From Chrysopilus asiliformis (taxonomy: Eukaryota > Arthropoda > Insecta > Diptera > Rhagionidae), in NCBI GenBank assembly GCA_964034945.1, contig OZ035960.1, forward strand, positions 15,657,403-15,721,402: DNA of 64,000 nt. Direction: 5' to 3'. Of this stretch, positions 7,290 through 62,700 are shown piece by piece. A program made the translations under genes and the position numbers. The first letter of the stretch is position 1; every line of letters begins with the position of its first letter. The notes under the pieces are model-generated. The model saw only the letters and a program-made list of their open reading frames with translations, was not told where the DNA came from and ran no database searches.

Positions 7290-8484
7290 TGCCCGAGGTC
7301 TTCATATTTAGTTTTTCTGTCAGATAGCTATACCGCAGATAAAGATATCTCGGAGATATCTTTAACTTGGGCATCTTCATGAAAATTCCAACTCGGTATA
7401 GCAACTCTCGAAATAAGGTTCCACAACTCCTGCACACTGGATACAATAAAACACCACCTTGATACAAACTATCGTGACGTCACATAAAGAGGTATTTTCT
7501 ATAATTGTGTGTTCTTATTAAAGGATTTTCGAAGTGAAAGGTACGATGTAAATTATCCGTTATAGCTTTCGAGTAATTCACCACCTTTATATCTTGTTTC
7601 GCGAAGCAAAGAACCGAAGAAATCAATGAAATCGTGGTCGAAATAGTGACCTTAAATTTATAATCAAAAGCAGCATCACGGCTTGTTTCTCATCACGAAG
7701 GCTATTGTTTTGAATGTTTTATTATCCGGTCGTGGCGCTGATAGCACTTCTGTCAAATGGAAACGATTTTCGGATTTCTTGTATGGTGTTTGGGATTTTT
7801 ATCATATCATGATCCAGCGCCGCAATAACTTTTGAAACCTTAGCTACCACACGACCAGTGAGACTAGCCGAAACTTTTGAGAAATCAGAACACGCCCTTA
7901 AAAAAACAACCTGTCGCATAAAACCGTAAAGCCAACAATGGTTGATCTCTGGGTGGCATTGCTCTGCTTCTGAAAATATTTAATAACAATAAATAACAAA
8001 TTTCGTTTTTGCCTATTATGATTAATACAGATTTCAGCTTCAATTCTAGGCAAAAGTGCTTGAAATGTTGCTTTTGTTAAGCGAAATCTCATAACAAATT
8101 CACTTTCACTCCAAGTATCAAAATGATTCACCCTTATTTGCAGTACGTAGGGTCTTGAAATGATTGCTGGTTCATCACTGTCAGAGTCAGAAAAAATATT
8201 CACTTCCATTAACGAATCCATAGGTTTTTTCATACATTTTAACTTTCCGATTTCAATATTTTAATTTTATTCTATAACTGTCAACAACTGCTTTAAAAAA
8301 GGAGTGGTGGCGCTGGGGTAAAAATATACAGATATCTCGACCTCAGACAAAGAGATAACTTTACCCGAGAGATATCTTTATCTCGATGTTTTTTGCTACG
8401 AAGACTTCCATTTTTTTAGATATACTTAGTATATCTCCCAATTGGTGTTATCCGCAGTATATCTGGGACTGAAGACTTCGGGCA
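7290..8484 (-). mobile_element. Harbinger (PIF/Harbinger) DNA transposon, degenerate
   Basis: The ends are inverted: TGCCCGAGGTCTTCA at 7290 and TGAAGACTTCGGGCA at 8484. They are flanked by TAA at 7287-7289 and 8485-8487, the TWA target duplication typical of this superfamily. Inside lie two minus-strand pieces of a HARBI1-like transposase. At 1195 bp it is far shorter than an autonomous element, so it has lost sequence and cannot transpose by itself. The same TAA/TTA duplication is seen at many MITEs in this window. Confidence 0.8.
7722..8233 (-). pseudogene. HARBI1-like transposase remnant
   Basis: Two minus-strand frames together resemble the N-terminal half of HARBI1-like nucleases. The first (8233-7898) has RPYVLQIRVNHFD and EFVMRFRLTKATFQALLPRI. 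The second (7919-7722) has SLTGRVVAKVSKVIAALDHD followed by MIKIPNTIQEI. The segment between them is shortened and the DDE catalytic half is missing, so it is a broken gene. Confidence 0.72.
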
Positions 8485-15387: not shown

Positions 15388-15634
15388 CGCCTTATTGATT
15401 ATAGGTTCTCTTCTTCAATTTTATGTGGTGACGATCATTATGCGTACTTCGAGTTTTTGAAAACAAACAATTTTGATGTGTAGAAGAATTATGTAAAATC
15501 ACATTCTAAATAAATATCTTTATGATATTTCCAATACGATGCGGCGTTTTCTATGATGCAATGTTGTCTAATGTTGATTGGATTTTATTTTCCAGGAACC
15601 ATCTCTATGAGGTGTAGAAAAAATAATTAAAAAA

Positions 15635-16170
15635 ACATAACAAAAGCTATAATTACCAATCTGGCAATTATTGAAAACCCGTATGGTGATATGGCATTGT
15701 TCGAAGTTTAAGTGAACAGCGAACAGTTGTATCAAAATTCCACTTTGAAGTCAAAGTTTCTAAAAAGATTTTTTTTAATTTATTCCAATCGAATTTTGAT
15801 GTATGGAAGTTTTATGTAGAATCATATCCTAAATAACTTTTGTTCTTGCACTTTTTTGATGAGATGCACCGTTTTTGAGTTATTCGCAAAAATCGTTTTC
15901 GTTCTAATGGTCCATTTTTGCCCATTAACGAACTTAGCCTCGCATTTTACGAAAAACGAATCTGAGCAAAATTTCAAGTCTCTAGCTCAATCCGTGCGCC
16001 CGCAATCCGCGCCACAGACGGACGGACCGACGGACATGCTAAATTCAACTTTTTTCATCATTCTAAACACACTGGTCCAATTCATTTTTTTGTGTGATGA
16101 CGGGATATTGGCGTTACAAACGGTAAGGCAAATCTAATATACCCTTTGGTGTCACCATACGGGTGTAAAA
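15635..16170 (+). mobile_element. DINE-1-like Helentron, copy 3
   Basis: Same orientation as copy 1, from CATAACAAAAGCTATAATTA to TGTCACCATACGGGTGTAAA. The tetranucleotide array is reduced to GACGGACGGACCGACGGACA and the GGGGGTACCCCC palindrome is deleted. Confidence 0.7.
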
Positions 16171-16837
16171 AAATTAAAAATTTGAAAAACTACAAAGAAA
16201 TACTCGTTTTGTTTTTCTGATTGATCAATATATATTTCATCAGTAACATATTTCAATGTAAATTTAGGACTCTTAATACCTCTACAAATTCCAATCATTT
16301 CATACGATATAAATATTTTTTTATTTTAATATAAATAAAACAAACATGTTTCCAACCTAAATATTTTTAGTAGTAATTAATTGTCTCATAGTCTGTTAAC
16401 AAAATATACCTTATCAGTATCTATATAAATATATTAGCTTTCATTTCGATTAATTCAATTAAAAAGCTTCCTCTCAGTACCAAATTCACTTCTTTCTCTA
16501 TGAGAAGTCTATATCTAAATTCATTGATATTATTATCATCATTTTCAGTTAAATTCTACATGGAATGCTATTTGAAAAACAGAAAATTGAGGAAAAAATT
16601 ACAAAATCAAATTAAAAAATTAAGGCATTCTTAGCAAAAAGTGAACGCTTTCGTATACTTTGTAAAATTAAGAAAAAAACAAAATTATCCAATGGTAGAA
16701 ATAACTTTAAGCAACAAAATTCATTCCAAAATTAGTGATTAACTTGCAAAATTTTGTGACTACGTTAAAATTTACAAAAAAAAATTAAGCCGCTGTTTAA
16801 AAGCAAAAATATTATCCGCGATAAATTGCCATTCTTA

Positions 16838-16843
16838 TTTATT
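16838..16843 (-). promoter_or_regulatory. Possible KIF21 polyadenylation signal
   Basis: AATAAA on the minus strand, about 270 nt beyond the second TGA. In AT-rich DNA this hexamer is frequent, so position is the only support. Confidence 0.3.
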
Positions 16844-17110
16844 ACTCTTAAATTAAATCGAAGAAAAATATCGCAACTTGTATCTTAAATTTACACAAAA
16901 TTAAACTTAAGTTTTTTGCTCGATAGCGATAAGTTGTAAAAAAAGAGATAAATTACAAATATTTTTCATAAATACAAAATATGTAATCAAAAATGATATA
17001 CGCATAAAAAACAGGATGAAATTGAAATATGAGCATAAGATTTGTTATGATCAAATGAATATCATAAAGCAAAGCGAAATAATAAAATAATAGTAGTAAT
17101 AAAATTGGAA

Positions 17111-17713
17111 TCATAATTTTTTACTAAACGATTGAAGGCTAGAGGAGAAAGCATTCAGTCGTGTTCTATCTAATAGCGTTCTGTTTACACTTCTATTAAT
17201 CACAGTGTCAGGCCTGTGTCTAAGCCGATTTATTAGTCTTAAATCATTCTGGAATTTTTTATTATGATGTTCTTGATGTTGACTCAGCCCCTGATGCTGA
17301 ACGGTATTCTGCTGATAGATTTTTTGATGTTGTAGCAATCGCTGATTCCGATATAGGATATGCGATGAATGTGGATATTGCTTCTGTATCTGTAGTTGCT
17401 GCTGAAGGTGTTCATCTCTCCTGGGTCGTTGCTGTTGTTTCCGTTGTCGAGAATCATCAAAATCATCCCCATCGTACACGTCATCATCATCATCGTCGTC
17501 GTCATCATAATCATCGCCATTACGATTATATTTTATATCCTTTAAGCTATTACATCGACTTGTTGTGGGGCTGGTTGATGCCAACTGACTGAGTGCCGAT
17601 GTTGATGTTGAAAAACGCTTGAAGCTCGAGGCTATGGAACTATTTGGACCGAAAATGCTACTTCTTCTTCTGCCTGTGGCCTTTCCACATAATTCATCTT
17701 CGGAGCCGCAATG
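17111..17713 (-). CDS. In-frame 200-codon extension after the KIF21 stop (candidate readthrough)
   Basis: Directly after the KIF21 TGA, in the same frame, 200 sense codons run to a TGA at 17113-17111. The first residues are HCGSEDELCGKATGRRR, then a Ser-rich part (SIASSFKRFSTSTSALSQ), an acidic run with nine consecutive Asp, a Gln/His-rich part with QQQLQIQKQ, and a basic tail ending SSLQSFSKKL. No known domain is visible; most of it would be disordered. In a genome this AT-rich such an open stretch is unlikely by chance, though GAT and CAG repeats help keep it open. If translated, it would extend KIF21 to 1752 residues plus the residue inserted at the TGA. Otherwise it is unusually open 3' UTR, or the TGA is a sequence error. 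Confidence 0.6.
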   Translation of the reverse strand, partial: HCGSEDELCGKATGRRRSSIFGPNSSIASSFKRFSTSTSALSQLASTSPTTSRCNSLKDIKYNRNGDDYDDDDDDDDDVYDGDDFDDSRQRKQQQRPRRDEHLQQQLQIQKQYPHSSHILYRNQRLLQHQKIYQQNTVQHQGLSQHQEHHNKKFQNDLRLINRLRHRPDTVINRSVNRTLLDRTRLNAFSSSLQSFSKKL

Positions 17714-17783
17714 TCAGCTATTTTCTAGCGAATACTGCCGTTTCAACGATGATGTAAATCGCCACATCCGTACCTTCCCATCA
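17714..17783 (-). CDS. KIF21: KIF21 exon 18 (coding part): final WD40 strand and stop
   Basis: The acceptor AAAATAG is followed by [17 protein letters not shown], the closing strand of the WD40 propeller, then YSLENS and TGA. Only 70 nt are needed to complete the protein, and they restore phase exactly. The next base after TGA is C, a context associated with readthrough in insects. Confidence 0.88.
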
Positions 17784-20700
17784 CTATTTTATCGTTGAGA
17801 ATAAAAATTGAAGAAAAAGCAGAAAATAAAAAAGGAGATACTTTTGCTAAATGAAAATTAAATATTGGTAAAAAAAAATGAAAATCATAAAATTTGTGAA
17901 TTTTTCAATAACAATAAAACATAACACACAGACAAGAAGAGAGGCAGAGACAACATTTTTGACATAATTAACACGAAGACATTTTTTGCGATTAAAATGG
18001 AAAACAAACATAAATGACAAAAAAAAAATGATTGAAGATTAACAGAAGCGAAGGAAGTGAGATTAATTTGTTAATAATTGTGATGGACTTTTAGATATGC
18101 AAAAAAAAAATGTTTTTTTGTTTAAAATCAATTATTTTTAATTAAAAAGCGGATATTATAAACAAATGAAATTTACGTATGTTAACTTTTATTGGATTAT
18201 GGCAAAAGCAAATGTACAAAATTTCGTATAAATTTTCAATCAATAGTGATGTTCTCTAGTTGGTATTTGAAGAAAAAAATCTTTCGCATAATTTATATGC
18301 AAAATTACTTTAATACTGCGGAACCGCCATAAAAGGAAATCGCTAATAGAGCTAAACAATATCGTTGTGTAGAGAATTTCGCTATAATATAGAGGTTTCG
18401 TTATATTATGGAGGTTCGACAGTACTTGAAAATATAATCAGAAACCAATTAATAACAACCGCAAAACTTATTTATTTAATTACTTTTAGCGTGATTTATT
18501 CACTTTGTATTTGCCGTTGTTGATTTAGCGCTTGAAATTACATCAGAAAATCGTTATACAGTGAAAGCTGTCTTCGCGGTATCATGGATACGCCAAAAAC
18601 TTACCTAGGCAAAAAAAAACAAAGACTCATGATTTTGTGTAAGACTGTGTTTACATTAAGATTCATTTTGAGGCGACACGTCTTTCCTCATTTCTCTGCC
18701 GTGTGCACACGGTTCGCTTCATCTTCATTCGCTAAACCAGTTTCATCAACAAAACTAAACAAAACAGGTCTCAACAACCATACTCAACCCGGTTTGCGAC
18801 TGAAAATTTTAAGTGAATCTAAACTTCGTTCGCTCTTTTTGGTTTCCCTCCCCACTGCGTCCCTCACCCTCACTTGGCCGGAGCGAATGACGTGCCGCCT
18901 CAAAGTGAGTCCTAATATAAACACAGTCTAAACGAACTCGGATGAAAACCTGTCTAACTGGCGACGTACACGAAGCAACTTTCGGTCATCAGCATGCCTC
19001 AGCCTCACCAAATTGTGGGAAAGAAACGAGTGCGGCAAGGGGAGAAAAGTCGCCACTCGAAAAGTGTTCTTCACGTCTTCTTTTACGAACTCTAACGAAG
19101 TCGCTCGTGTAGCACACATGTGTGCGTAATTTCATTGAGTCAGTCGGTGCTTAGCCACCGACTCGTAAACATATCCCAAATAAAAAAAATTGAATCCCAA
19201 TTGCAGATAGTTTTATTTTTCAGGTAGGTGGGAAAGAGTAAATGCCATAACAAATTACCAGTCCTTATTCTTCTATTGTTGGCAGTTTCTATTTTGGCAA
19301 TTGATGTTGCCTCGGTGCTAGCTAATAAAGGAATGAGCTGGAAATACAACACATATATGAGAACCACACACACATGAGCGATCGCTTGTTGTACACAAGA
19401 TTTTCCTACTAAAAAGTGAAGAAGCGTGTACGTCGGATAGGCCTTTTGAGGACTAAAAGTCGCCGCGACGAGAAGAAGCGTGTGCGTTCACACTAAGACG
19501 ATTCAATTTTCTAGGTCTGTGCCACTCAAGCTTATACAGGTTTCACAGTTCTAACAAAAATTCTGAAAAAGTTATTCACGCGAGTGAAAATTGTACCCAA
19601 ATATCATATCTTTCAACTGCTAACGATTTTCATTTTTTAAATTTTATAAAATTTGACTATTTTCCCAATTTTTGAAGCTGAATAGCAACCACCGCTTCAA
19701 AACCGGCTCCCGTAACCGGAACGGTGTCTGAATGAGCGCGTTTTAAATAATTTAATACACATGCAAAACCACCTTAATTAACCCTTCTATTATGTTGAAA
19801 AAATACATATAAATATAATGTTTGGACTCATGTGTATTTCTCCGTATAATGCATACAAAATAATCGTAAATTACAACTTTTACATGATCTTCGCAATAAG
19901 TATTTCACTGTGTGCTCCACTGTTCAAAAGAAATTTGAACTCATAGAATTTTTAATAACGAAAATTTTGGTTTAAATTTCGTTGGGTCATGAAATGGCCC
20001 GAACATAATAGAAGGGTTAAGTCTTTAGTTGTAACCAATATAACTTTTCCTGAAATTATTCTAAAATATAAGTTGTGTTGATGCGTTTGTGACATTCCTC
20101 ATCTTTAATTACTAATTGGGATGCATCGGCACGCGACGGGAATATGGCTAAGACCGGAAAATGGTTGTAGCGTCGAAGAAGAAGATTAAATATCGGAAAT
20201 AGTGTCCTTGTCACAAAATAGTGTAAATGTGACAACCAATGAAAATTTATTTACAAAAATATCGAAAAAACTTCTCTATATCCAATAAATTTTAATAAAC
20301 TGCTGATGACGCATGCAATACGATGATTTTTTTTCCAATTTCTAAATATTGCAATGTTACAGTGAATGAAATGAGAAAATTTTTTTGAATATAATGTGCA
20401 TGTGAGAAAAAAATATATTGATGAACAAATTTCGAATTGAGAGAAAACCATTTATATGCAGAACGTTTCTGAAGCATCACCAATAAACAATGAAACGTTT
20501 GACCAATAAGAAGCCGAGCATTACAAAACAAACGATCATAACAAGCGTATAATAATTTTTATTAAAATAAAATAAAGTTGAACAGAATGAAACTTACGCC
20601 AATCAATTTCGAATTATGTACAAATTCGTTTAATGTTGACTTTTAGATAGGAAAAAAGTGTTGGTTGTATGCAAAATTTATGCAACACTTTTTTATGCCA

Positions 20701-23700: not shown

Positions 23701-26700
23701 TTTTTAATTTCTATCAAAAAAAAGTTTTTACTGTTCATTACGTTATCGTTACGTTTTTTCTCATTGCTTTTGTGAATTCTCGATATTCTCTGAATTGAAA
23801 AATTTGATTATATTGATTGCCTATAATAGACAAAGGGCAATTACAGATTAATCTTGTTAAATTTTTATTTATTTTTTATTTCACAAAATAATTGCGCTTT
23901 CTTCACCAATTAAGTCTTTCTATCGTCATGGAAAAAAAATCAAATCCGTATAATTTCTCTTTTCGTATTCAAATTACGAAGATAATAACGATTGCAATAT
24001 TTTGTTTTGTAATTGTTTTATAATAGCAATAAATATATTAGTAGTAAGTAGTATTGTTCAATTGACAAAGAATATAATTCCTAATAAATATATTTGGATA
24101 CATTTATTTGTTAATAGCAGAGTTATTAGTAGACGTATTAGTAGCACAAATAGTAGTACAATTGGCGATTGATGTTAAATTTGTTATGAAATTGTTTTAT
24201 TTGCTGGCATTGACGACGATGAGGAGCTATCGAGAGGTGAAAAACGCCAAATCCTCACTTCACCAGAACTGTTTCGGAATAAAAAAAAGAGAATAAAGAA
24301 AACAAAAATATTTTTTCCTTTAACTTTATCGATTTGTTTTTTGTTTGTTCGTTTTTTATTTTTTTTTTGCTTGTTTCAATTTCAATTGATCAAAAAAAAA
24401 ATAAAAGCTACTAAAAATGAGAGAAAAACAAGTTAATTATTTATAGTTCATAGACTATTTCTAATATTAATGCACAGCTGGAAAGGGGGGATAAACTGGG
24501 AACAAATAACTAATCCAAATTATTCATATGGTAAAACTATACGAACAAAATGCGTTATTTATTCATCTAGTCAAAAACAATAATTATAGTACTTGAAATC
24601 AAATTAAAATCATAAAAGAAATATCGTTTAACTACTCACTTGGATGCTGTAAAGACGCGTTGTCCGGATGCCACAATATCATAGATTGAAGAGTCAGTTT
24701 TCATTTCAGCTAAACTTTCACAAGTTTTAACATTCCATAGGCGAATAATGCCACCACGGCAGCTAGAAAGCAGGACATCGCCAGATATTGCCATTCCCGA
24801 TACCCAGCCCTTGTGTGCGTTATTGAGTGACTAAAAGGAAAATCATTTTACTAACAAGAATGAAACATTTATGATATTTTAAAAAATTAGCAACAGAATT
24901 GCTCTCAGTTTTTTTTAACACAAGATTTTTTATTGATCAATCAGAGCTATAAAAAAAATCACGATACGAAAATCACAATGGACGCATTCAGCTGCAAAAA
25001 GCGCTCAGCTGAGCCGCTCAGCATGCCCTGAACGCACTGCTCAGTGCATACTGTTTGCAAACCATCAACAGCCTTGAGTTTTAATAAAACGGGGTCAAAA
25101 AGCCTTGAGTTTTAATAAAATTTTATAAATTTTTTTGATTTTTCGCACCGCTCACTAACTGAGCGTACTTTTATGCCGCTCAGTAAAAAAGCTGAGCTGC
25201 TCAGAAGGAACGATTGCATTCAGTAACTGAGCCAGTGAGCTGCTCAAAAAACTTCTGAGCGGCTCAGTTCACTGAATGCGCCCAATGTTTTGACATTTCA
25301 GAATTTAAGACATCGGAATTTAAATTCAATCGGCAACGCATCGTTAAAATAATTGATTTTTTCAAGAAAAACTAATATAAAGGTGCCGCTCCACATGAGC
25401 GTAAATACGCGAGTAACTCTCAAAAACTCTCGAGAGTTACTCGCAGGAGGTTGTCCATTTGAGAGTTAGTTTCGGCGATTTTTCTCTTTTCAAGACTAAT
25501 ATCTTGATTTTTTTGACATCTTGCTTTAGCGAGTTCTCGAGAGCTACTAGCGAAATTCAAACGCCATTCGTATCTGGCGAGCAACTCCCCGAGAGTTCAG
25601 TGGGTGGGTGTCGACTAGAGAGTAGAATCACTTTTGACAGCTCGCAGAAACTAGCTCGCGAGTTTTTGCGAGTTTCTGCGAGCGACTCTCAGAGACGTGT
25701 CCATTTGCGAGTAGCTGCTATCGAAAGGTTCTTGCCGGCATTTACTCTCATGTGAAGCGGCACCTTAAAAGTGTTGGATATATACATTAATTTTTTCTTG
25801 ATAATTTTGATCACAAATTCTTAGTTCAAATTAAGTCATTTATACAGAAATCGAAAATTTCCAGAAGGCAAAACCTTTTTTTTTAATTATTTTTACTTAA
25901 CAAAACTTATTTTTAAACAGACCCACTATGCCTACCTGTTTGAGCTCTCCGTTTCTGAGGTCCCATCGCTTGATACCTGAATCGCGGCTCCCGGAAAATA
26001 ACTCAGCATCCGCCCCTAAGGCATCCTGAGCAACTGCCAAAGCTTGAACACCATCATAATGCGGAGGTTCCAAATTCAGCAGTGGATAGACGACACCACC
26101 GGTTGAAGGAACTTCAAAAACTTTAACATAATGATCCTTGGAACCAGTCGCAACGAAATCTGTATTACCGGATCCCTCCCATGCTGTCACACACATAACT
26201 GCCGCCTGATGCCCACCAGAAAGTTTCCCCAAACATGTTAAACTGCGAAAGAGGAAATTCAATTGTTTGAGTGACATGGGTTTTGTTTAGTAATTAACCA
26301 AAAGTCATGTTAACATCAGATCTATATCGCCCCCCCCCCCCCTTTTCCCAATTTCAATTTCCGGAAATGGCAAGCATGCATCAATTTGAAGCCGAAATCG
26401 AAAATTGTCACCCCCCCACAAATTACCCTTCAATTTTCCGTTGATCCCTCAAACACTAGCAATTAACTTACTTTTTCAGGTCCCAGATTCTTACTTTATC
26501 CGATGCAGCCACATACAAATTACCGGATGCGCCCATGCATAAAGCCGTAATTGGCGATTCGCCCGGTTGTGTTCCAATCACATTTGCATTGCCGGCCATC
26601 GTCTGTCCCGATGAACATAAAGTCTTTATGGCCCTTACATTGCTAGCTCTTAGATCCCACACACGGACATATGGGCCGGATGCAGAGAATAGCAAATTCG

Positions 26701-29700
26701 TTTTACAATCGTATTCAACAGCAATTACAGGACCCGGATGCGTTGATAGACAATGCTGGGCCGTCTCCTTGGCCAAATCCCAAACTTTTACCGTTCGATC
26801 GGCGGCCGCCGTAAACAGTGTATTGTCCTCCACTTTAATCGATAGAACAGCATTATTATGGCCGACAACAGTGTGTGTACAGTAGAGTGGCACTCCGGCA
26901 CGTATCTGTAATCAAATGAATAGAATTTCTGTTATGGCAAAGTTATTCAATCAGGCAACAACATTCATTCTTTCAGATTAAAACGTCAATGCAAAAACAC
27001 TCTACGAATTATTATCTATAACATAAAATGGTAAGATACAAACCTTTCCAGTGAATTTCTGTATACTTCCGCCTGGCGTTGGATCCTGTATACCGGCTCC
27101 CAATCGAGAGAACACGTCACTATTACTGGCATCTTCCCGTGATGTCATCCGGCGGTAGACCGGTGGCGATTGAGTTGGCGTTGTTACATCATCCTCTCTA
27201 CGTTAATGCATCAGCGAATAGCAGCGAAAAGCAATTTATTAGTGGATTTTTGGGATGGTTAATGATTAAAACTTTTTCTGTTATAATTATATTGATAAAA
27301 ACAACCGGGTGAACAAGCCCATACTCAAACAGAATTTGCTACAAATGTGCATTTTGTTAGGAAAAAAATAAATTGTGTGTTGAGTGTAAATGTGATGAGA
27401 TTCATGCGTTTATGGAACTTTAACCAGACTGCATACACAAGACAGAAATACTGTACGAAAAACCAACATAGGAAATATAGTTTATAAAACGAAATTCCAC
27501 TTGCAAAATCAATGGATGAGTTTTTGATGTCGTAAAAGTCGCGACAAACAATTTTAGTATACCTGATTGACAACCTGTTAATTTTGACTGAAAAATTTAT
27601 TTGCAAACTGATAAAACATTTTTACCACTTCAGAGTTATTTTTATTAAAATTTGGAAAGTAAGAATTATGAGAGTATATGCGTTGCTTTGCCGGAGTGCG
27701 CCATTTTTAAACAATTTTAGATATTTTTGCCTATTCAAAAGGTTCTTTTTTGCGTTTGTCGTTATTTCATTTGCTTGGTTGTGCAAAAAAAAACCTTTTG
27801 TAGAAGGCAGAATAGCTAAATTTGTCTTGCTTTCTTCAAAAACCACGCAATACGGCGATGTAACGCAGTCGATATGCCACAGGTCGGAAAAATTCTATAT
27901 ATTTTTAATAATGTTTCAAATTTCTTGATTGAAAGCGCAGCTAAAAAATTTTTGATCAGTTTGCATAATAATTAAGCGCTAGACTAAAATTTCACTATCA
28001 ACAAAAAAAAAACAAATTGCAATTAAGAACAACTTCGAATGAAACAAACAAAACGGATAACAAAAAGTATTGTTAAAATACGTAAATTACGAAATCGTCA
28101 ATTTAAGGACAAAATTAAACTCGACAAACGAACACCAATTTAATCTTAAAGACATTGCTAGCAATTATACTTTTTTTTTCTTTTTTTCATTTTCAAGCCC
28201 GCAATAAGTCTTTCGCAATCAATTGAAAAAAAATCACAGAAAAAAATCTAAAACTTTTTATATTACTGTTCACGTAAATTAGTTTAAAAATTAAATTAAT
28301 TAACAAGTAAAAATCATTTCATCATTAAAATAAAATTAAGTCAATAGTATTTTTTAAATGCATAACCACATTATGTACGTTAATAATAAAAGATTTATGA
28401 ATAATAAATAAATTAGTAATAATAGTAATAATAAAATTAAGTATCGATTCTGTTGGTCTAGCTGTTGCCATTGTAGTAGCAGAAATATTAATAAATCGGT
28501 CGCAAATTCAACAACATCTGTTGTACGCAGTCTCATCGCTAAATTAAAAACTGTGAAAAATAAATAATAAAAAAAGAAAAGAAATAATATTCAAAAAAGA
28601 GTATAAATATCGTGTTTTGAATTTATATACAATGTGAATTCATTGCTTTGTGTTTGTGCTTGTGTTTTATCAAAAATTAAAATAAATTACAATAAAATAA
28701 GAAAAAAAAAGGATTTTTTTTTGTGAAATTAGACTAAAAAAGCATGCGCGAGGCGTGTCTCAAAATCCTGTCGTGGAAAGTCTATCTACACTTCAGTAAT
28801 TTTTATTTACGACTAGTTTTCTACGTTTGTAATCAACCTAAATGTTTATAAAGATATTTTCTTCGTATTCATAAAGAAATAAAGAGCTGAAAATTCGTGA
28901 TTATAGGAATATACTTACAACCCAGGTGACCCTTTAGTAGGAAAAGCTCTTCGGGACATTCGAGGTGATAGCGGAACCATTGTTGAGCCAACAGCATCGA
29001 CTGCTTTGCGCGTTAATGAAGGCGAGGCGATGTTATTCAAAGATTGCCTGTAAAAAATGCATCAGGGTTTAAAAAATTTATTTTTAACGGCTTGTTTCTA
29101 CAAACAAAAATGCATCAGAGTTTAAAAAATAGATTTTTTTAATGCCTTGTTTCTACAGACAAAAACTCGCAGAATTTTCACTCTCTTCGAAGTATTTTGC
29201 AAGGGAAAACACCTAAAATTCGCCTCGCAGTAGTTGTTTAAAGCTGCCGCTCCTCATGAGAGTAAATACGCGAATAACTCTCAAAAACTCTCGAGAGTTA
29301 CTCGCAGGAGGTTGTCTATTTGAGAGTTAATTTCGGCGACTTTTCTCTTTTCAAGACTAATATCTTGATTTTTTTGACATCTTGCTTTGGCGAGTTCTCG
29401 AGAGCTAGTAGCGAAATTCAAACGCCGTGCGTATCTGGCGAGAAACTCCCCGAGAGTTCAGTGGGTGCGTGTCGACTAGAGAGTAGAATCACTTTTGACA
29501 GCTCGCAGAAACTAGCTCGCGAGTTTTTGCGAGTTTCTACGAGCGACTCTCAGAGACGTGTCCATTTGCGAGTAGCTGCTATCGAGAGGTTCTCGCAGGC
29601 ATTTACTCTCATGTGGAGCGGCACCTTTAAACAACTACAGCGAGGCGAATTTTAGGTGTTTTCCTTTGCAAAATACTTCGAAGATAGTGAAAATTCTTAA

Positions 29701-32700
29701 CCACAAATTTTACGAGCTGGAAACGAGGCCGTGTAGTTTTAATTACTAGGAAAATATAAGTTTTCCTCTGACATATTGTGTCGAGTTAGAGTATTTGTAT
29801 TCGTTTTTAATAAATTAGCGTGTTTTTTACAGGATGTTCGTCAAAATTTGAGAAGTGTCAAATTTTTGTCCTTAGATTGGTGAATGAGAACATCAAAAAC
29901 CCTTTACCGCTAATTTTCCCGAGAATAATGGGAAAAATTATATTTGCGGTATGCTCCGCTTGGAATCTTGAAATCCTTTTAAAAAAGAATCATCTAGATC
30001 GGTTCGGCAGAACTCAATAACTAAGAATGTGTGAAAATCCTTTCTTTATATAATTAAAATACTTACTTCAATGAACCTGGTGCACTTGGAACTCGTGCCA
30101 GTGGAATAAAACTACGATTCACTGCTTCTTGTTGTGTGAACGATCGAGTCATTGAATCATCCTGGAAAAATATTTTTTATTGTGTTATTAATTTCGAAAA
30201 AAAACCTTCCAATTGAATGAGAATTTACTCACCTTATCATTAACACTGTTAGTAATTGAATCACCAAACAGAAGATCTTGAGGTTGAGCAGTTCTTCTAC
30301 GCACTTTGCTATTTCTGTCTCTAGAATTGAAAATGATTTTATTACCACAATACATCCAAGTTTCTTGAAAAATTAATATATTTTTCAACAAACAGCAAAA
30401 CCCAATAATACGAAAATAATACTCACGCATCAATATTTGGTGCTGGGGACGGACTCCGACTTGAGCCAGAGCTGTGATTCGGATGATGATCACGATCGCC
30501 AGCGCCGAGCAAAAGGCTATTAACATTATGCACATCGGACGGAATGTCATAGGTACTGTTGCTGTTCAACGTATTACCGGAGCTGCTCCATTGGTTCGAC
30601 AAAAGCAATGCATTCGAGAGATTCGCGTCACCAAGGGCGGCTGTTGGATTTTGTGCAATTATGTGCTGAAGCAACTGCTGCTGAATGCTACTGTCCTGCT
30701 GAACCTCCTTCAATAACGCTTCTCGCTCCAACAATCTAGTCTGGCTTAGTGCACTATCACACGTCTGAGAAATGCTTATCTCAGAAAGTTTCTCCAGCAG
30801 GAATTTCGCTTCATCCACCGAACGGACATTCTCGATCAAGGTTTGCAACGATTGAGCTTCATTAGCGGGCTCCTTGCCCTCCTCAAGCTCCATAATCGAA
30901 TGCTGAACTTGTGTAATACTCTCCTGAATGTAATTCAGATTCGCCTTGACGGTGTCCTCTTCGTTCGCTAATTCTACACTATCGACATGCTTCTGACGAG
31001 CTTTCACATTTGCCAGATCTCGACTTAATGCCTCGCGTTCATGAATCAGTCTTTCGAGTTCACGTTCCAACTCCACAACGGCTTGCTTGCTGCGAGCTGC
31101 CCGGCCAATTGTACGTTGTAGGTTGTCCCATTTGAGACGCGCCTGTCTTGGACTAAAGATCAACGGTGATCTCTTCTGCGGAACACGTCCAGAAGCCTTC
31201 ACACTCAACATACCCCGCTGAGTTTTACGTAATGCCGTAACTTGTTCGTTCTTTCGCTTTAGAATTTGATCTTTGGCTGCCCCTTGAGCTTGCAGGGATT
31301 TGATTGTGTTTTGCTGTTTTCTTGACTCTTTGCGAAGCTGGGCAATTTCACGGGCTTTTTTACTCTCCTCCTCTTTGTGACGACTGCTCTCTTCGGTCAT
31401 TTTACGCATTAATTTTGTCTAGAAAATGTATTAGAAGTTATAAGGAATTTTTTTATCAACATTTTTAAATATTTTTCTTGGCTTAAACAAAATGAAAAAC
31501 TAATAGCAGGTATTCTATCCATGGTAATACATCCCAAAGAGGGATTGGGCCTCCTTAATTTAAGTTTCTAACAATTTTCCTGCTCTGCTACGCACCTACA
31601 ACTTTACATGGATGGCGAACCATGGATGAATTGCAACATTTTTAATGTTTTTCATATCAAACCTTCAACAGCCAGGGGTCGTAATAGCAGACTGATGGTG
31701 TCATTAACACCAAGCATTAACTATCACTACTCATTTTTTTAGAACAAGTTAAATGAACTTGAAGTGATTGCGAGCTGCAGGCTCAACATTGCCAGCAAGG
31801 ATTACTACGATAACGATTTTCTCACAATAAACCAAATTTTAATTACCTTCATTGCTTTAAGTTCTGACAATTCATTTCTTAGATTTCTCAGTTGCGCTTC
31901 CTGCGAATGAAGCGCTCTTTGCTGACGAATGTGCTCCTTTTGCGCTGATTGCAGTTTCCTCAGTTCCCTCTGCATGTCAGAAATTTTTCTCTCGTATTCG
32001 TCACGGACTTTCTTGACCTTATCACTGGGCTGGGATTGATTTGATGCTAAAGTAAAACATTGTTCATAATTCATCATCAACAAAAAAGGATTAATAAAGC
32101 CAACTTACATCCCATATTAGACAAAACTTGATCTCTCTCCCGCTGTGTGTTGAGAATTCTAGCGTTTAATACATTTAACTTTTCCTCATAATGCTGTCGC
32201 ATAACTTGCAATCGCTGCTGCGATAATTCCAATTGCTCAATCAGTTTTGTTTTCAACTCAATATCTGAACTTATATCGTTTAATTCAGCTTGCATTTCAC
32301 CAGCTACAAAAAAACGATAAATTTGAGAGTTAAAAATTTGTTTTTTTAACTTTTTAACAAAAAAAAAACTCACTCTTATCATCGGATTCTGTGTCGCTGT
32401 CACTGTCCGATTCATTGTCCACATTTGAATTATTAGCGTCTTCATTAAAACCAGGCAACGATCTGGACATTAAAAGTTCGCGTTCCTTCTCCAGCTCTTT
32501 CTTCGCTATGCTAATTATGGCATCAGGACCTTCGAAGAACAAAAATAATGTCAAAATCTTGACAAATTGGAAATTGTCTCTCCTCAAACTTACCCTCCGT
32601 AAACGACATATTCATTTTGAAATTATTTCGCGGACTAGACATTGATTTCTTTAGCTGCTGATACATTTGTTCGGATTCAATTAGTTTCGCCTGAAGTTTC

Positions 32701-35700
32701 TCGATCTCCGTCAAATACCCGCCAATAAGATCAGTGACCGATTTATCTGTATCGGCCGCGGTCCATCCTATCGTCGCTTTTTGCAACATCAAATCAGCAT
32801 TCTTTTCAGTCAATGAATTAATAGTTTCCTGCATAGCTTTTAGCCGCTGCTGTAGTCGTTTATTATCGGCCATTAGCATAGCATTTTCATGGAAGGTGTC
32901 CGTCATGGATGCATTTCCTTCCGCATCAATGCTTCGTTTTCCCTGCAATTTTTTATTGAAACAATGAAAATTAAGAAAAAAATTGATATCTTTTAGGACG
33001 CAATACCTGTTTATATTCTAATAATTCTAACTGTAAAGCCGCAATCTCACGACGTAGCTGCGATATTGTCCTAGAGCTTTGGTCTTGATTAAGTTGTACT
33101 TTATTCTTAATATTTCGGGCACGATTTGCATATTTCAGGGTGTTCAATGTCTCCATGAAGTCACGATCGCTTGGCGAAACGCATGCAATCATCAGAGTTT
33201 GACTATTGCCTGAAAAAAAACAACATTATATGAAATTTCCATTTATTACATCAATCATTTATCATGATTACATAGTAAAAATAGAAGCAAATATAATGAG
33301 ATAACTTACCGCCAAGAGAATCTTGTAGTAATCGTGTGAGTTTTGAGTCACGATATGGAACATGTGTGACACGTTTTGATTTATCTCCTAATGCTGAAAT
33401 TACATTGCCCAACGCTAAAAGGCCACAATTAATAGAAATCCCCTCACGGGCACGTTCCCCGGTCGCCCCAGTCCTCTTCAAGCGTTCTGACCCGGCCAAA
33501 TCAACAAAATGAAACTTTGACGTCAGCGTTTCCAAGTCACCTTCAGGCATTCCACACTCCTCCACCGACATTACGCGCTGACGTCGTATCAAAATCGTGA
33601 ACAGTGCATGACTTCGTGAAGATTGAGCATTCATTTGAGTCGATGCTGTGGTCCTGGCCAAGGCGCCCTGCTGTAGACACCTAAACAATTTTTTTAAAAA
33701 ATCCCATAAAAAATCAATTTCCAACTCAAAGTGATGATTATATACTTTAAGGCATCCTGAGGTCCATTAATTGGTTTAATAGTTGCTCCCGACACGGATA
33801 TCCCGCCAGCGGGATCTTCATGTATTTTAAAAATTCTACTCTTATTGTACGGATCGAGCAGATCAATAATTTCTTCGTTGTAGAGTTCCATAAATTGTGC
33901 AGCGACACTGAATTGAACACTTCCCATACTAATTCCGTTCTCCTGGGATTTCCCAGTTTGTAAATTATCAATACCCGAAAATATATGGCGTACGGCACGC
34001 GGTATAATGCCCTCCTGAATCTCTTCAAGGTCTCTATCGAATCCTGTTCCCATTGTGTATGTTTTACCCGATCCCGTCTGACCATATGCTAATACAGTCG
34101 CATTGTACCCCTTGAGGGCACCCTCAACGAGTTTTTCAACACATTTTCCATAGATTTCAAACTAAAATAAAATTCCAAATGAAATGAAATAAAAAAGAAT
34201 TCTTAAGGAACAAACGAACGAACGTACCTGATCTGAATTTACATCGAAAACGAAGTCAAAGGTGAAGGCCTTATCAGCTCCTAAAATCACTTGTGGTTCA
34301 CCTGGTGTCACTGTCGTGCATATACGACACATATCGATTATCTCTCTGGGTATTTGCGGTCGTATCCTGAAAGAGAAAAAATCCGTATGGTTAAAAAATT
34401 TTAATGTGTATCTAAAGCGATTAACAAAATATTTTCTATGGTAATATCTGGGTTTGGAAGGATCAAAAATCCGCATACGAATCTCATTTTTTTTAAACCA
34501 ACAAAATCACACCAAAAAAAATCTTTTTGTAAAAAAAACGGTATTTTTTGCACCCCAAAATTGAACTGTTTTCTAAAAATGATGCACTGGTTCTTCGAAG
34601 CGAATCAAATTGATTGTTGAGTGGAAATTTTAGTGAACCAAAATCAAACCAATAACCGAACTATTTCAAGCAAATCCAAACACATTTTTAATATTACAAA
34701 AATCGAACCAAAAACCAAAAAATTTTTAGTGGTTTTTCGTTAGGTTCGTATTTGATTTTTTAAGGTTGAAAAATTCTCATTATTTTTCAAATTCCACCAA
34801 ATTTTGCGTCCGAAAAGCACTCTTCCTATCCTGTATCTAAAAAAAATTGAATTTTGATGTACGGAAAAGTTTTGTAAAGCTGTATTCTAAACACTTTTTG
34901 TCTTAACTTTTTTTCCGTACTATAAACTGTCGAGAAAATTGCAAAAGAAGGTTTCTTGTATGTGACAGGGGGAACAGGGTTGTCCAAAAAAATATATAGC
35001 CTATTTTATTATATTCATTTTTTTTTCAAAAGCGCATAGATTTTAGGAAATTTTCAAAAATAACTGTACCCCTTACAGCTACCGTTAAGGTAGAAATACA
35101 CGACGAGAGACTTTGGTCTCTGGTCTCCAGGGTACAAAAGGCAAAAATCTCCAAAGTGTATACACGATCACAGACATTTAAGTCTGGAGATCAAAAAATA
35201 GATCTCCGGAGACGTTTACTAAAGTCTCTAAAAGCAAAGTCTCTGGAGTGCATACGCGACGCAGGTATCTCGTCTCCAAGCATAACAACAATATCACTAA
35301 TCTAAAATATAAAATAAGTAAAAACACTTTTTTTCTTTATAAAAACTGACCTTTAATCTCAAAAAAAAACGAAACAAATTCTCGTTCCCACAAAACAATT
35401 CCCTGAAATGTCAAAATTCGTCTCCGGAGACCAAGAGATAGATATCAAAACGTTTTGAAGACCGGAGACGTATTAAAGAGACTCTCTCATTAGTAGCTAC
35501 ACGGCAAGAAACTTAAGTCTCCCAGAGACCTTAGAGACTTGATATTTGGAGACAAATCTCCGGTCTCCGAAGTGTATACACAGGTCTCTTTGTATGCAGA
35601 GGCGAAATTTTTGGTCTAAGAGACCAAAGTCTCTCGTCGTGTATTTCTACCTTTACTTTTCTTTCGTAATTTTCGTAAAACTCATTTACAAGAAATTTCA

Positions 35701-41700: not shown

Positions 41701-44700
41701 GGTCCTGTAAGGATAACGCAAATACCCTTTTCCCCATTTTTCCCGGGAAAAAATTGCATTTGGGGTTTTCGGGGTCACTGATCACGAATACGGTGTTAGA
41801 CTAATTCGCAACGGAGAGTCCTGTCAGGATAAGATTTTTCTCCAAAGTTTTTAAGTTCTTTCCGGTTTCTAAACTTATACAATTCTAAAACTTGTACAAA
41901 AAACTTAACCCGGCAACGACGGGTATGCAAACTAGTTTCGTATAAACAGAGATAAATAAAAATTGAGTTGGAACACAAATTCGAATTTCCTCTTGCATAT
42001 AAACAAGTTCAATGTTATTTTTGAGACAATTTAAACCTATAAAAATACTACCTGCCTTACAGTTTTCTTATTAAAAAAATTTCAATCGCGCTTCAAAAAA
42101 AGAACATTTTATTTGTTCAAAAAAGCTGTATCTTTGATTGATAAATTTATGTGGCCAAATTTATAAATATAATACCCAAAATTACGTTTAATCTCAAGCT
42201 CTCCTTTGGGCATAAATTGAAAGTTTTTTTCGCGAAAATTTCGATAGACGAGAATCTTCAAAAAGAAATCACATAATGGAGTGTTTGTTGATTTAATAAA
42301 CATTTTCAAGCGTAAATTTCGCAATTCTTTGAAAACTTCACATTAATATTAGTCATTGCGAACAATTTCCAGAAACAGCAAAACAAGTATTTTGTTTATT
42401 TAAAAGTTTTAAATCGGATCGAGAAGAAAACTTAATCCACCCCCTCATCCTGACTCAGCACATCGAATGACGGTAAAGTTCTTCATCGATATGTTAACAG
42501 ACATGATTCAGACGAGCGTTTTCGTCATCTCGTTACCATAACCGAAAAATCCATCGAGATCACTCAAAAGATCAAATAACCAAATTAAGTCGTGAAGGTA
42601 AATAAGAATTCAAGTAGCACAAGGATGAAAATTAATTGAACTTCATAGAGCAGGCACACTAAATGACAATATTGTCGTTGGTCCCCAATAATGCAAAGTC
42701 ATATAAAAGTATGTACTTGTTGGGATTTCACAGACAATTTTACAAAGGAAATTTCCTAAGACGATTATAAAAATGCACAAAAATTTAATTTACTAGCGTG
42801 AAAATTTATTTGGGAGATAAATTTCATCGAAGCTGATTCAAACGAGTGACGGTGGTAATCTTTCCATTTTATTGGTGGATAATTTTTGGCTTTGCGGACA
42901 AGGTTAAATCTACTAGGAACCACATTTATGGGTGTGTCGTCATTTTGATATTTACTGAATATCAAATTTACATCGCCATAAATCTTATATGGACACACGA
43001 TCTATGATGCATTTCTGGTTTCTGATGGGCATTTTCGGAAATGCGGAGGCAAAAATTTCTACTTTACAAACAGAGGCAAAAATCGTAATCCTAGTAAGCG
43101 GAGGAAATTTTTATAAATTCATTTTTTTAAAAGTCAATCACATATTTAATAAAAATCAAAATGGTATTCACAACCGAGGATATAATTAACAACGAACGTA
43201 ACGAGTTTAATCTTCGACCGTGGATGAATGTTGCGTTTTGTGTAATATTTGCATGCTTACCAATTGTTTGGTACGTCAATCCAGGAAATATGTTTAAATT
43301 ATCTCTGCAGAAAATAATATTCGAAGATGGCTATAAGGAGTTCAAACTCTCGGAGGTTTCTTTAGTGATTATAAACATTCTGGGCTTGTTGGGCTTCTTT
43401 TACCTTAGAAGATTACGTTTAGAAGAAAATCAGCAGCGATTTGAAAAGTTGACAAATTCGAAGCCATTGATCCAAAAATATTCCAATGAAGTAAAAAAGA
43501 TGTTGAATGATATTGATATGACAATGTTGAACAGGGAATGCTTGACTGAACAAACAAATCAGGCGAATAGAAGACGTAGATCAGCATTGAACTTGATAAC
43601 CGACGATGATGATACTTTGGATTCTAAGCAAGGACGAGATGAAGATCAAGGTTCAGATTCAGATTCAGATTCCGATCTAGATGAAGACAAAACTGGTAGA
43701 AATGATATCAAAGTCGAAGAAATAAAAATAGAACATCATGATAGTGAAATACGATCAGTTAACATTGAAGATTGTCACTAATGTACGGGGAACTAAATCT
43801 TACGATCACCTTTGAATGTCAGTAAGAAAATGGGCTACAATTAGAATTTTTATTTTAAAAGAACTGCTTGTGGAAATACTGAGTCTGAAACACAAAAAAA
43901 AATCTTGTATTTAACACCTTAATTTCCTTGTATTATATCCTATCTAATTTTTATTTCAAGTTTTTTTTAATGTCTTTATAATATTTAAAAATATATTCTT
44001 GTCAGTTTTTGTGTTATTAATTCAATATTTATGATTTCCCAAAAAAAAATTACATGCGTTCTGTTGTCGCTATCTAAAAGCCCTATCACACCTAAAGGTG
44101 CCGCTCCACTTGAGAGTAAATGCCGGCGAGAACCTCTCGATAGCAGCTACTCGAAAATGGACACGTCTCTGAGAGTCGCTCGCAGAAACTCGCAAAAACT
44201 CGCGAGCTAGTTTCTGTGAGCTATCAAAAGTGACTCTACTCTCGCGTCGGCATGCACCCACTGAACTCTCAGTGGGCGAGGGAGTTGCTCGACAGATACG
44301 AACGGCGTTTGAAGTTCGCTAGTAGCTCTCGAGAACTCCCCAAAGCAAGATGTCATAAAAATCAAGGGCGAGGGAGTTGCTCGACAGATACGAACGGCGT
44401 TTGAAGTTCGCTAGTAGCTCTCGAGAACTCCCCAAAGCAAGATGTCATAAAAATCAAGATATTGGTCTTGAAAATAGAAAAACCGCCGAAATCAACTCTC
44501 AACTGTACAACCTCCTGCGAGTAACTCTCGAGAGTTCATGTGGAGCGTCACCTTAAGGACATATATTATCTATTTTAATTTTTTAGGCTCTTTTCTTAAA
44601 AACAGAGATGCAAACCAAAGGTTTTTTGAGTCTGGTTCGGTTTTGGTTCAAGAGTGAATTGGATCTCTGGTTTTGGTTTCGAACATAGCCAAATTAACGA

Positions 44701-59700: not shown

Positions 59701-62700
59701 ATATCGAAAGGCATCATGCGGTGGTTATGTAAATTTAAGTTTAGATAAACAATTCTTAAGTCATGGCCGCGTCGCGTCCATTTAAGTGGCAAACAAAAAT
59801 CAAAATGATGACAACGCGCGTCGGTGACAAACTGGCTGATGGTGAATAAAAAAAGAAGAAATTTAAAACGAATGGATATTAAATTTTTTTTATTGAAAAT
59901 TCACTGACAAAACTTTGGTGGGTTTTTTTTCAAAATCTAAATCTGCCTTCTGATGGTGTTGCAGAATTACTTCATATATCAAACTGGCAATTGACTGAAA
60001 TGGTCAGAGTATTTATTTATCCTTCTATCTTTGGCAATGGCTCAAGTACCTTTTTTATTGATCCGTCAGATTAATTTAATATCTTGGAACTGAAGCTGAA
60101 GTAAAGGAAAAGCAAAAAAAAATTGCCACTTTTGGAGAGCTACACAGTTTTTGAGCAAGTGGTCAAGAAACTCTTTAAATGTGATTTGAATGTCAAAATA
60201 AATATAAATAAAGCTACATATTCTTGATTGTCTCGGCAATTCTGTAAAATCAATTAAATGTTATTAAGTCAAGTGTGAATTAATCATTTTTCCGAGAGTA
60301 TTTCTAAAACAGTGGATGATCCGCCTGGGGTACCTCAAGGTTACCATCTCGGTCCTTTACTGTTTATTTTATTTTTTTAATGACGTTTAAATAGTGATTA
60401 GGAATTGCCATGGAAAAATGATCTCTTACAAAAGTGATTCATGTATTCTTTCATTGCTATAAAGTGTCCGGCCCGGAAAGTGTATGGAAGCAGAATTTTT
60501 GTAAGCCAAAGCGGAAGCAGGCCCTGCTTCATGTGGAGCGACGAAATAAGCCAGGATGCAAGTGATTTATTAGAGAATTCGATGACCACGACGTAAGACC
60601 GGGTCGTCTAGAAATTGTTATTAGGTAGGCCTATACCAGACCCCGGTTGCTGCGTCGTTGATGATGATTACGTGTCCCAACATTCAATCATTTTTATTCC
60701 TAATGAAATATGAAAAAATTTGATTTTAATCGACAAAAAATTACTTACTAAAAATCGATCCAACATACGAACTTTAGAATTTCAGTCAGATTTTGAGAGT
60801 CATAACAAAATTTCCCCATCACAATTCGAACCCAATCACATTAAGATCAGATGTTTTTCTATTATTGACTCCTTAATGACTTTATGAATGTTTCCCCTAC
60901 ACATATTAAGTAGATACAAGAATTCAAGTACAATTAAAGAGTTAAACAATTTTATGTTTTGTTGCTAAACAATAGTTGCGTTACTGTTAAACAATTTGAA
61001 CAACTATTTGATCGACTCAGATATCTTTCTAGAATGTTTTTTTTTTTCATTTGTTTCTAGTTTTCGTTAACTGTGACTAAAACTTTAACAAAACGACTAT
61101 CTGGTGGTCTTTCGAAAGTAATTTCGTGTTCGTGGAATCTATCCATGTAACAACGGAACGCCGGCAATTATTTCTTCATTAAAAATTTACCACACAAAAC
61201 CAACTATGCTCGAATACCGTATCAAATGGAAGTTTCATGTCAGATGCCTTTGGCTTTACCTTTTATAACTATGATGTATTTTTTTTTTACGTTACCGGCG
61301 ATTTTGTTAATGTTTCGTTATTTTGAGAGGTCCAGTTCCATGACAAGAGTTTAATAACACCTGGCTAGACATTTCAGGGCATTCCAATTCCAGTTTCAAA
61401 ATCATTAGTTTTAAATAGCGCAAATTACCCAGTTCTATGCTATGGCATGAAGCTTATGCAATCTTCAAAGTGATGAAACATATTTCAAACTGTCAAAATT
61501 ATAATTATGGATTAGTGTCGGATGACGGACAAGAAGTAGAATACACAAACAAAATACTATAGGACAGACAAATTTTTACTGTATAAAATACCTATTGTAA
61601 AATGGTAATGTTATAAATGTAGTTTAAATAAATTGAATCCGAGTAAATTTATTTGAAAGGACAGGAATTTGTTTAATTCACGCCCTCATTAAATTAAATC
61701 CAGAACTTGTCGAATTTTCTTTTTTTTTCAACGTGATTTTTTTTTTAAATCCTTCTCACATTTTTTTTTTACCAAAATCCGATTTTTTTTTTTGACGTGC
61801 CCGTAGTCAAGCTTATAAGACTCAACAGACTCCTCGAATGAGTGAAATTGACCCGGCTTGGAAAGTCTTCTGCGGTAGGTTATTAACAACAAGGCCACGA
61901 GGAAGATCCAACCTCAGATGGCAAGACGGCGTTGACCAGGACGCGAAGAGAATTGGGATGCAAAACTGGAAGACATCGGCCCGTGACCGGGACCTCTGGC
62001 GAGAGACATTGCGGCAGGCCAAGAGCAGAAACCGGTTGTAGTGCCGAGAGAGATATATAGAGAGAGAGGCAGAGAGGGAGAGAGCGAGAGAGAGTGAGAG
62101 AGAGAGACAGAGAGAGATAGACAGAGAGATAGAGAGACAAAGAGAGAGAGAGAGACAAAGAGAGAGAGAGAGAGACAGAAAGAGACATAGAGAGAGAGAG
62201 AGGATATTTCGAAGAGCCTATGCTGAAACTAATCCTCCGATAGGTATACCCACGGCATAGAGACAAACAAGGTATGCTGTAAACTCAAATCTGACATTTC
62301 GTTGCTACGTCACTTGTGCCGATTAGTTCGTGAAGTGCAGAAGGAATTTTGTATTCTGGATGGTTTTTTTTTAAATTTGTGCGATTTAAATTAAATATTT
62401 GTAAATTAGTGGACTGATTGCATTAAATAGTGATCAATAAACATAAAAATTAATTAAAAAAAATCGGCACAAATGACGTCACACCTGACTATCAAAAGTT
62501 TACAGCATACCTTGTTTGTCTGTATGCCGTGAGGTATACCCATGCCAAATTTGGCGTCAATTGATTAATGAGATATCGATAAAATACGTCACGCTATTTT
62601 TAAGTTTATCACTCCCCCTCCTTTTTCGAAATTTTTTGTATAGAGTTTAGTACTGCTTTCATACGTGTTTTATGGGCAGCCCGCCCCTAAGGTGTTTTTG

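Follow-up and report, generated by a model that had tools for sequence, protein, structure and literature searches.

A candidate leaky UGA-C stop codon in the distal last exon of a fly KIF21 gene

Our analysis of 64,000 nucleotides of Chrysopilus asiliformis DNA (the window) suggests that one isoform of the kinesin KIF21, which ends in the distal of two alternative last exons (15B), probably undergoes readthrough of a leaky UGA-C stop. Readthrough is the best-supported explanation because the frame behind the stop is coding-like, the stop is a UGA followed by C, the extension holds no in-frame ATG, the place of the stop is kept in the proteins of other flies, and the coding signal is lost past the second stop. 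The case is likely a single-genome instance added to a phenomenon already known in insects. A sequence-only reading of the same DNA had proposed readthrough yielding a short and a long KIF21; readthrough is likely on the evidence above, but the two forms have to be narrowed: readthrough would touch the 15B isoform only, since 15B is one of two alternative last exons.

In the mechanism we propose, KIF21 transcripts would choose exon 15A or exon 15B, presumably in a mutually exclusive manner; on 15B transcripts most ribosomes would halt at the UGA at 17716-17714 (minus strand), giving a short tail; and a presumed minor fraction of ribosomes would decode UGA-C as an amino acid, adding 200 residues up to a second UGA.

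The KIF21 gene and its two last exons

Chaining of exons at GT/AG boundaries joined exons 1-14 (24640..34366, minus strand) into a single open frame, in a model that leaves out the gene's 5' end and, near 30.3 kb, what is probably a cassette exon. These exons encode the motor domain, the coiled coils and most of the WD40 propeller (Pfam Kinesin PF00225, E 4.8e-106; WD40, E 5.9e-30). The motor is of the kinesin-4 type: its top match among solved structures is 7x4n (E 1.2e-121, ‘Kinesin-like protein’), which we take to be KLP-12, followed by KIF4 and KIF7. The WD40 E-value and the names of the nearest proteins identify the C-terminal domain as that of KIF21, and the layout of motor, coiled coils and C-terminal WD40 is shared with the kinesin-4 proteins KIF21A, KIF21B and KLP-12. 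The nearest proteins among the matches listed (the best 120 of 1111), both named KIF21A, come from the long-legged fly Condylostylus longicornis (87% identity) and the hoverfly Episyrphus balteatus (86%), these identities spanning 81-83% of the region used as the query. Of the 1111 WD40-region matches, the 120 listed, some without a name, include none named as coming from Drosophila, a tephritid or a muscid; that higher flies may have lost the WD40 form is a lead from these comparisons, not a result. Between model exons 9 and 10 lies an ORF (30191-30565, minus strand) that has no Pfam match and carries a 16-residue stretch found also in Condylostylus KIF21A; it is probably a cassette exon omitted from our model.

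Exon 14 (24830-24640, minus strand) ends at TCCAA|GTGAGT in phase 2, closing with two bases of a codon, and two downstream exons fit that phase. The proximal one, exon 15A (24184..24268, minus strand), ends in TAA and completes the WD40 propeller with a tail of its own; a pattern scan places an AATAAA at 24108, downstream of it. The exon from 24268 thus contradicts the sequence-only reading, which had taken the distal exon for the only 3' end of KIF21. The distal one, exon 15B (17714..17783, minus strand), ends in TGA (17716-17714) and also supplies the last WD40 strand plus a short tail, its stop lying 15 residues past the last WD40 Trp. Its acceptor scores poorly (-3.2) on a crude matrix. 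Adjoining this weak acceptor, within the conserved GKVR codons of 15B, is a donor-like site, AAG|GTACGG at 17774 on the minus strand (score 7.2), which may be a mark of regulated splicing. The first AATAAA past the second stop (16838..16843, minus strand), a motif match from the pattern scan, may serve as the poly(A) signal for 15B transcripts.

Both kinds of last exon recur in other species. Sorting 120 protein records by tail pattern gave 49 A-like, 67 B-like and 4 others, with loose patterns that make some A/B calls outside Diptera doubtful; by eye, the 47 Diptera records divide into 33 A, 12 B and 2 odd ones (Wyeomyia). The records were clustered at 90% identity, so that further isoforms may be hidden. 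A and B types apparently share a contig in Anopheles stephensi, Sitodiplosis mosellana and the mayfly Cloeon dipterum, which makes it very likely that a single gene carries both. Judged from these protein comparisons, the 15A/15B-type pair probably goes back a long way, at least within insects.

The B tails end 11-18 residues past the last WD40 Trp in all 12 B-type Diptera records, which represent 9 genera with four records from Anopheles; in two of them, from Clunio and Chironomus, the last WD40 residue is Tyr instead of Trp. Because this end position is kept in these records (11-18 residues, against 15 here), the TGA is probably an old stop rather than a sense codon lost by recent mutation, as far as the place of a stop can be read from proteins, in which the identity of the codon as TGA is not visible. 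Protein records alone can thus suggest the age of a readthrough candidate's first stop.

The 200-codon extension and its coding signal

Direct reading of the minus strand bears out what had been claimed of the sequence itself: a TGA followed by C, 200 open codons in the same frame, and a second TGA. The stop context is TGA CAT (17716-17711), with the C at 17713 that makes it a leaky context. The second ORF (17114..17713) continues the 15B frame for 200 sense codons and closes at a TGA at 17111..17113, beyond which the coding score drops and stays low. It encodes no Met and contains no in-frame ATG. The Ser/Arg-rich parts and the Asp and Gln/His runs noticed earlier are present: the extension is Ser/Arg-rich, has an Asp run and a Gln/His-rich part, and finishes with a basic end, its charge falling into blocks of net +5, then -12, then +13. 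Its composition has the look of a disordered region, and it holds repeats of TCA and of a 21-base unit. The long form would end in SKKL (17114-17125, minus strand). C-termini of the SKL kind are peroxisomal signals; SKKL is loosely similar, its last three residues are KKL, and the likeness is probably a coincidence.

Length alone is hard to obtain by chance. Among 20,000 second-order Markov sequences from each of three models, none reached 200 open codons; the longest runs were 145 (extension composition), 139 (3'UTR) and 165 (whole minus strand). With a three-periodic coding model trained on the exons of this KIF21 gene, the extension reaches 60.9 bits in frame 0, while the other two frames give -56.8 and -132.1 bits; the frame-0 score falls within the range of seven held-out, cross-validated 600-nt blocks of KIF21 CDS (37.7-70.9 bits). 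A 3'UTR block from outside the training set scores -197.9, -147.5 and -234.6 bits, and 10 non-coding blocks, which belonged to the training set, score no better than -68.5 in whichever frame they are read. The frame contrast of the extension is 117.7, compared with 56.9 +/- 22.7 in open composition-matched simulations, of which 7 of 2000 are as high. When the repetitive middle is left out (codons 1-62 and 151-200 kept), the contrast is 77.9 against 29.0 +/- 17.4, with 9 of 2000 simulations as high; scored by themselves in frame 0, these non-repetitive parts are unremarkable for their composition, 864 of 2000 simulations having as high a raw score.

The local coding signal is uneven, and weak beside the stop, because other frames top frame 0 in some 30-codon windows: frame 1 is slightly ahead at 17782 (0.0 vs. 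-3.1), a window that is partly real exon, and at 17722 (4.0 vs. 1.6), and frame 2 leads at 17362 (12.6 vs. 10.8). Base composition, in 50-base bins, runs at a G+C of 0.28-0.52 over 17750-17151, with 0.28 and 0.20 around the second stop and 0.14-0.22 upstream of 15B. By score per codon, the extension ranks fifth among the 82 stop-to-stop ORFs of at least 80 codons in the 64-kb window; three of the four ranked above it overlap KIF21 exons, on which the model was trained, and the remaining one is an ORF at 61796-62038 on the plus strand.

Two candidates for a separate gene were considered. An antisense ORF at 17224-17589 exceeds the extension in contrast per codon (0.698 vs. 0.588) and falls below it in score per codon (0.172 vs. 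0.305). Over that interval the antisense strand scores 21.0 bits against 49.5 for the sense strand, and the shadow opposite a real KIF21 exon scores 33.8 against 78.7; each of the three antisense frames scores below zero when the extension is taken in full. An antisense gene was rejected, its score being shadow-sized, as opposite a real exon. An independent ATG-started gene within the extension was likewise rejected on the absence of Met, a non-AUG start being possible.

Searches for relatives of the extension found none. Pfam returned no family for it. With region 1390-1635 of the long model as the query, just two proteins were found, covering 17 and 18% of it and both ending at the first stop; the 200 residues alone gave no homologue at E <= 10 among 196 candidates; and a third protein search, whose query reached 65 residues into the extension, gave none among the 120 listed of 1111 matches. 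No homologue was found in viral contigs, and exon 14, used as a probe for insect DNA in viral and genome contigs, yielded no confirmed relative. Such a lack of homologues is expected if annotators end their models at the TGA; still, it gives readthrough no support.

Alternatives to readthrough

The strongest rival is splicing past the TGA: the 200 codons would be coding but reached through an acceptor beyond the stop, or with the stop cut out as part of a small intron. We consider this unlikely. Scoring of 17850-17050 with a crude matrix built on 15 acceptors, and consideration of the 14 best AG sites, produced sites past the TGA in frame with exon 14 at 17570 (0.6) and 17588 (0.5), and others near the end of the extension at 17138 (5.3), 17189 (2.9), 17219 (2.3) and 17213 (0.5). 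The good-looking donor within 15B at 17774 and the weak coding signal in the first codons past the TGA also speak for splicing, and sites inside the extension may be real despite low scores, since some of them outscore the acceptor of 15B itself. However, the acceptors that are in frame just past the TGA are weak (held-out real KIF21 acceptors score -1.7 to 11.7); the better-scoring in-frame sites would leave fewer than 37 codons; and the site at 17673 (2.7) is off-frame and would need a donor of a phase other than that of exon 14. Moreover, splicing that discards the first codons of 15B would cost the protein its last WD40 strand, and that strand is present in each of the 12 B-type Diptera records.

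Slightly less probable again is a recent nonsense mutation, a polymorphism, a pseudo-tail or an assembly error, in which case the tail used to be, or elsewhere still is, an unbroken part of KIF21. Such an event would leave what is seen here, a coding-like frame with one stop ahead of it, and the evidence comes from a single assembly. The comparison with other flies argues against it: all 12 B-type Diptera tails, including that of Condylostylus, the nearest relative found, end almost where this one does (11-18 residues past the Trp or Tyr; 15 here), and a tail near 200 residues occurs in none of the 47 Diptera records, the longest being 63 residues past the Trp and of A type, although these records are database gene models that end at stops by construction.

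It is improbable that the stretch is untranslated 3'UTR, kept open by chance or by its repeats. The TCA and 21-base repeats do lower the rate of stops, the protein searches found no homologue of the extension, and the non-repetitive parts have an ordinary raw score. Yet no simulation under any of the three models attained the observed length, the coding score equals that of real exons, the frame contrast is matched in 7 of 2000 simulations, and the G+C content (0.28-0.52) exceeds that upstream of the exon (0.14-0.22).

Recoding of the UGA by other means, i.e. selenocysteine insertion or A-to-I editing to UGG, is the least credible: a UGA could in principle be converted to Sec or Trp, but Rfam matches up to E 5 over 15500-18000 (four, all under their gathering scores) include no SECIS element, and ADAR disfavours a 5' G neighbour. 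An ATG-started gene, an antisense gene and selenocysteine are all poor explanations of the coding signal.

Readthrough in insects and the kinesin tail

Readthrough by leaky termination at UGA-C has ample precedent. According to Jungreis et al. (2016, PMC5100048), most of the insects tested have abundant readthrough, with a preference for TGA followed by C; the 8-mer CAGCAGCA occurs in 23% of Anopheles readthrough candidates vs. 8% of other transcripts; and TGA-C, CAGCAGCA in the second ORF and a low coding score past the second stop are among the listed properties of candidates. The KIF21 gene resembles these Drosophila and Anopheles genes in each respect: it is long and has many introns, its stop is TGA with C next, CAGCAGCA lies within the second ORF (17397..17404, minus strand), and that ORF is coding-like and ends at a second stop. 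It differs in that those genes were supported by codon conservation across several species, whereas the KIF21 extension was judged in a single genome, and in showing no RNA structure. After the first stop, predicted folding does not exceed that of shuffled sequences (z -0.13, -0.07, -0.03, +0.91), the 100 nt past the stop included. Structure is not a required feature; it is predicted in 9% of the Anopheles candidates in the portion of PMC5100048 available. The available text of PMC13170385 describes a stem-loop near the stop of Drosophila dfr that promotes readthrough; nothing like it is evident at the 15B stop.

The size and make-up of the extension are also familiar. Most fly extensions have 8-300 residues, and low-complexity stretches are frequent in the longer of them (PMC4528330, available portion), and predicted disorder is enriched in Drosophila extensions (PMC4999894, likewise). 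The portion of PMC4528330 also reports two Drosophila genes, Oamb and CG34377, with readthrough at two sites within alternative exons, and a 240-residue extension of Caps; the KIF21 case shares with them the tie to an alternative exon and a long low-complexity C-terminal tail, respectively. These are different genes, and their FlyBase annotation is mainly comparative according to the same text. No word beginning with kinesin, Klp or KIF occurs in the main text of PMC5100048, whose candidate list sits in the supplements. The open-licence literature searched gave no report joining KIF21 or Klp31E with stop codon readthrough, or Klp31E with KIF21; where it brings up KIF21 together with alternative last exons, the available portions deal with such exons in other genes, or with the splicing of Kif21a, whose exon 30 is alternative.

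If the reading is correct, a motor protein joins the readthrough genes of insects, and readthrough occurs within one of two old last exons, so that the tail of a kinesin would depend on splicing and translation together. If higher flies (Drosophila, tephritids, muscids) lack 15B, the case could have escaped the Drosophila surveys. We give an even chance to the fuller proposal of two stacked switches, in which the choice of last exon is followed by leaky termination on the distal one only, and which would produce three tails: 15A, 15B short, and 15B plus 200 charged and probably disordered residues. In the mammalian relative KIF21B, microtubule growth is paused with the help of the WD40 tail. 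Because the WD40 domain and a neighbouring basic linker of KIF21B bind microtubules jointly, and neither does so robustly alone (PMC5383399, available portion), a charged tail beside the WD40 domain would be a plausible modulator of microtubule binding. The sequence-only reading had supposed that the long tail could change contacts with cargo or microtubule tips, which is conjecture. The linker of KIF21B precedes the WD40 domain, whereas the fly tail follows it, and the available part of PMC5383399 describes no readthrough tail.

Three further ORFs in the window drew our attention. One (43131-43778, plus strand) has 216 codons with acidic Ser/Asp repeats, a coding-like frame contrast and no Pfam match; another (7901-8260, minus strand), of 120 codons and also without a Pfam match, has by impression the look of a piece of a transposase. 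The ORF at 61796-62038 (81 codons) ranks third in the window by coding score per codon and lies opposite a Ser/Leu repeat, and its score is probably repeat-driven.
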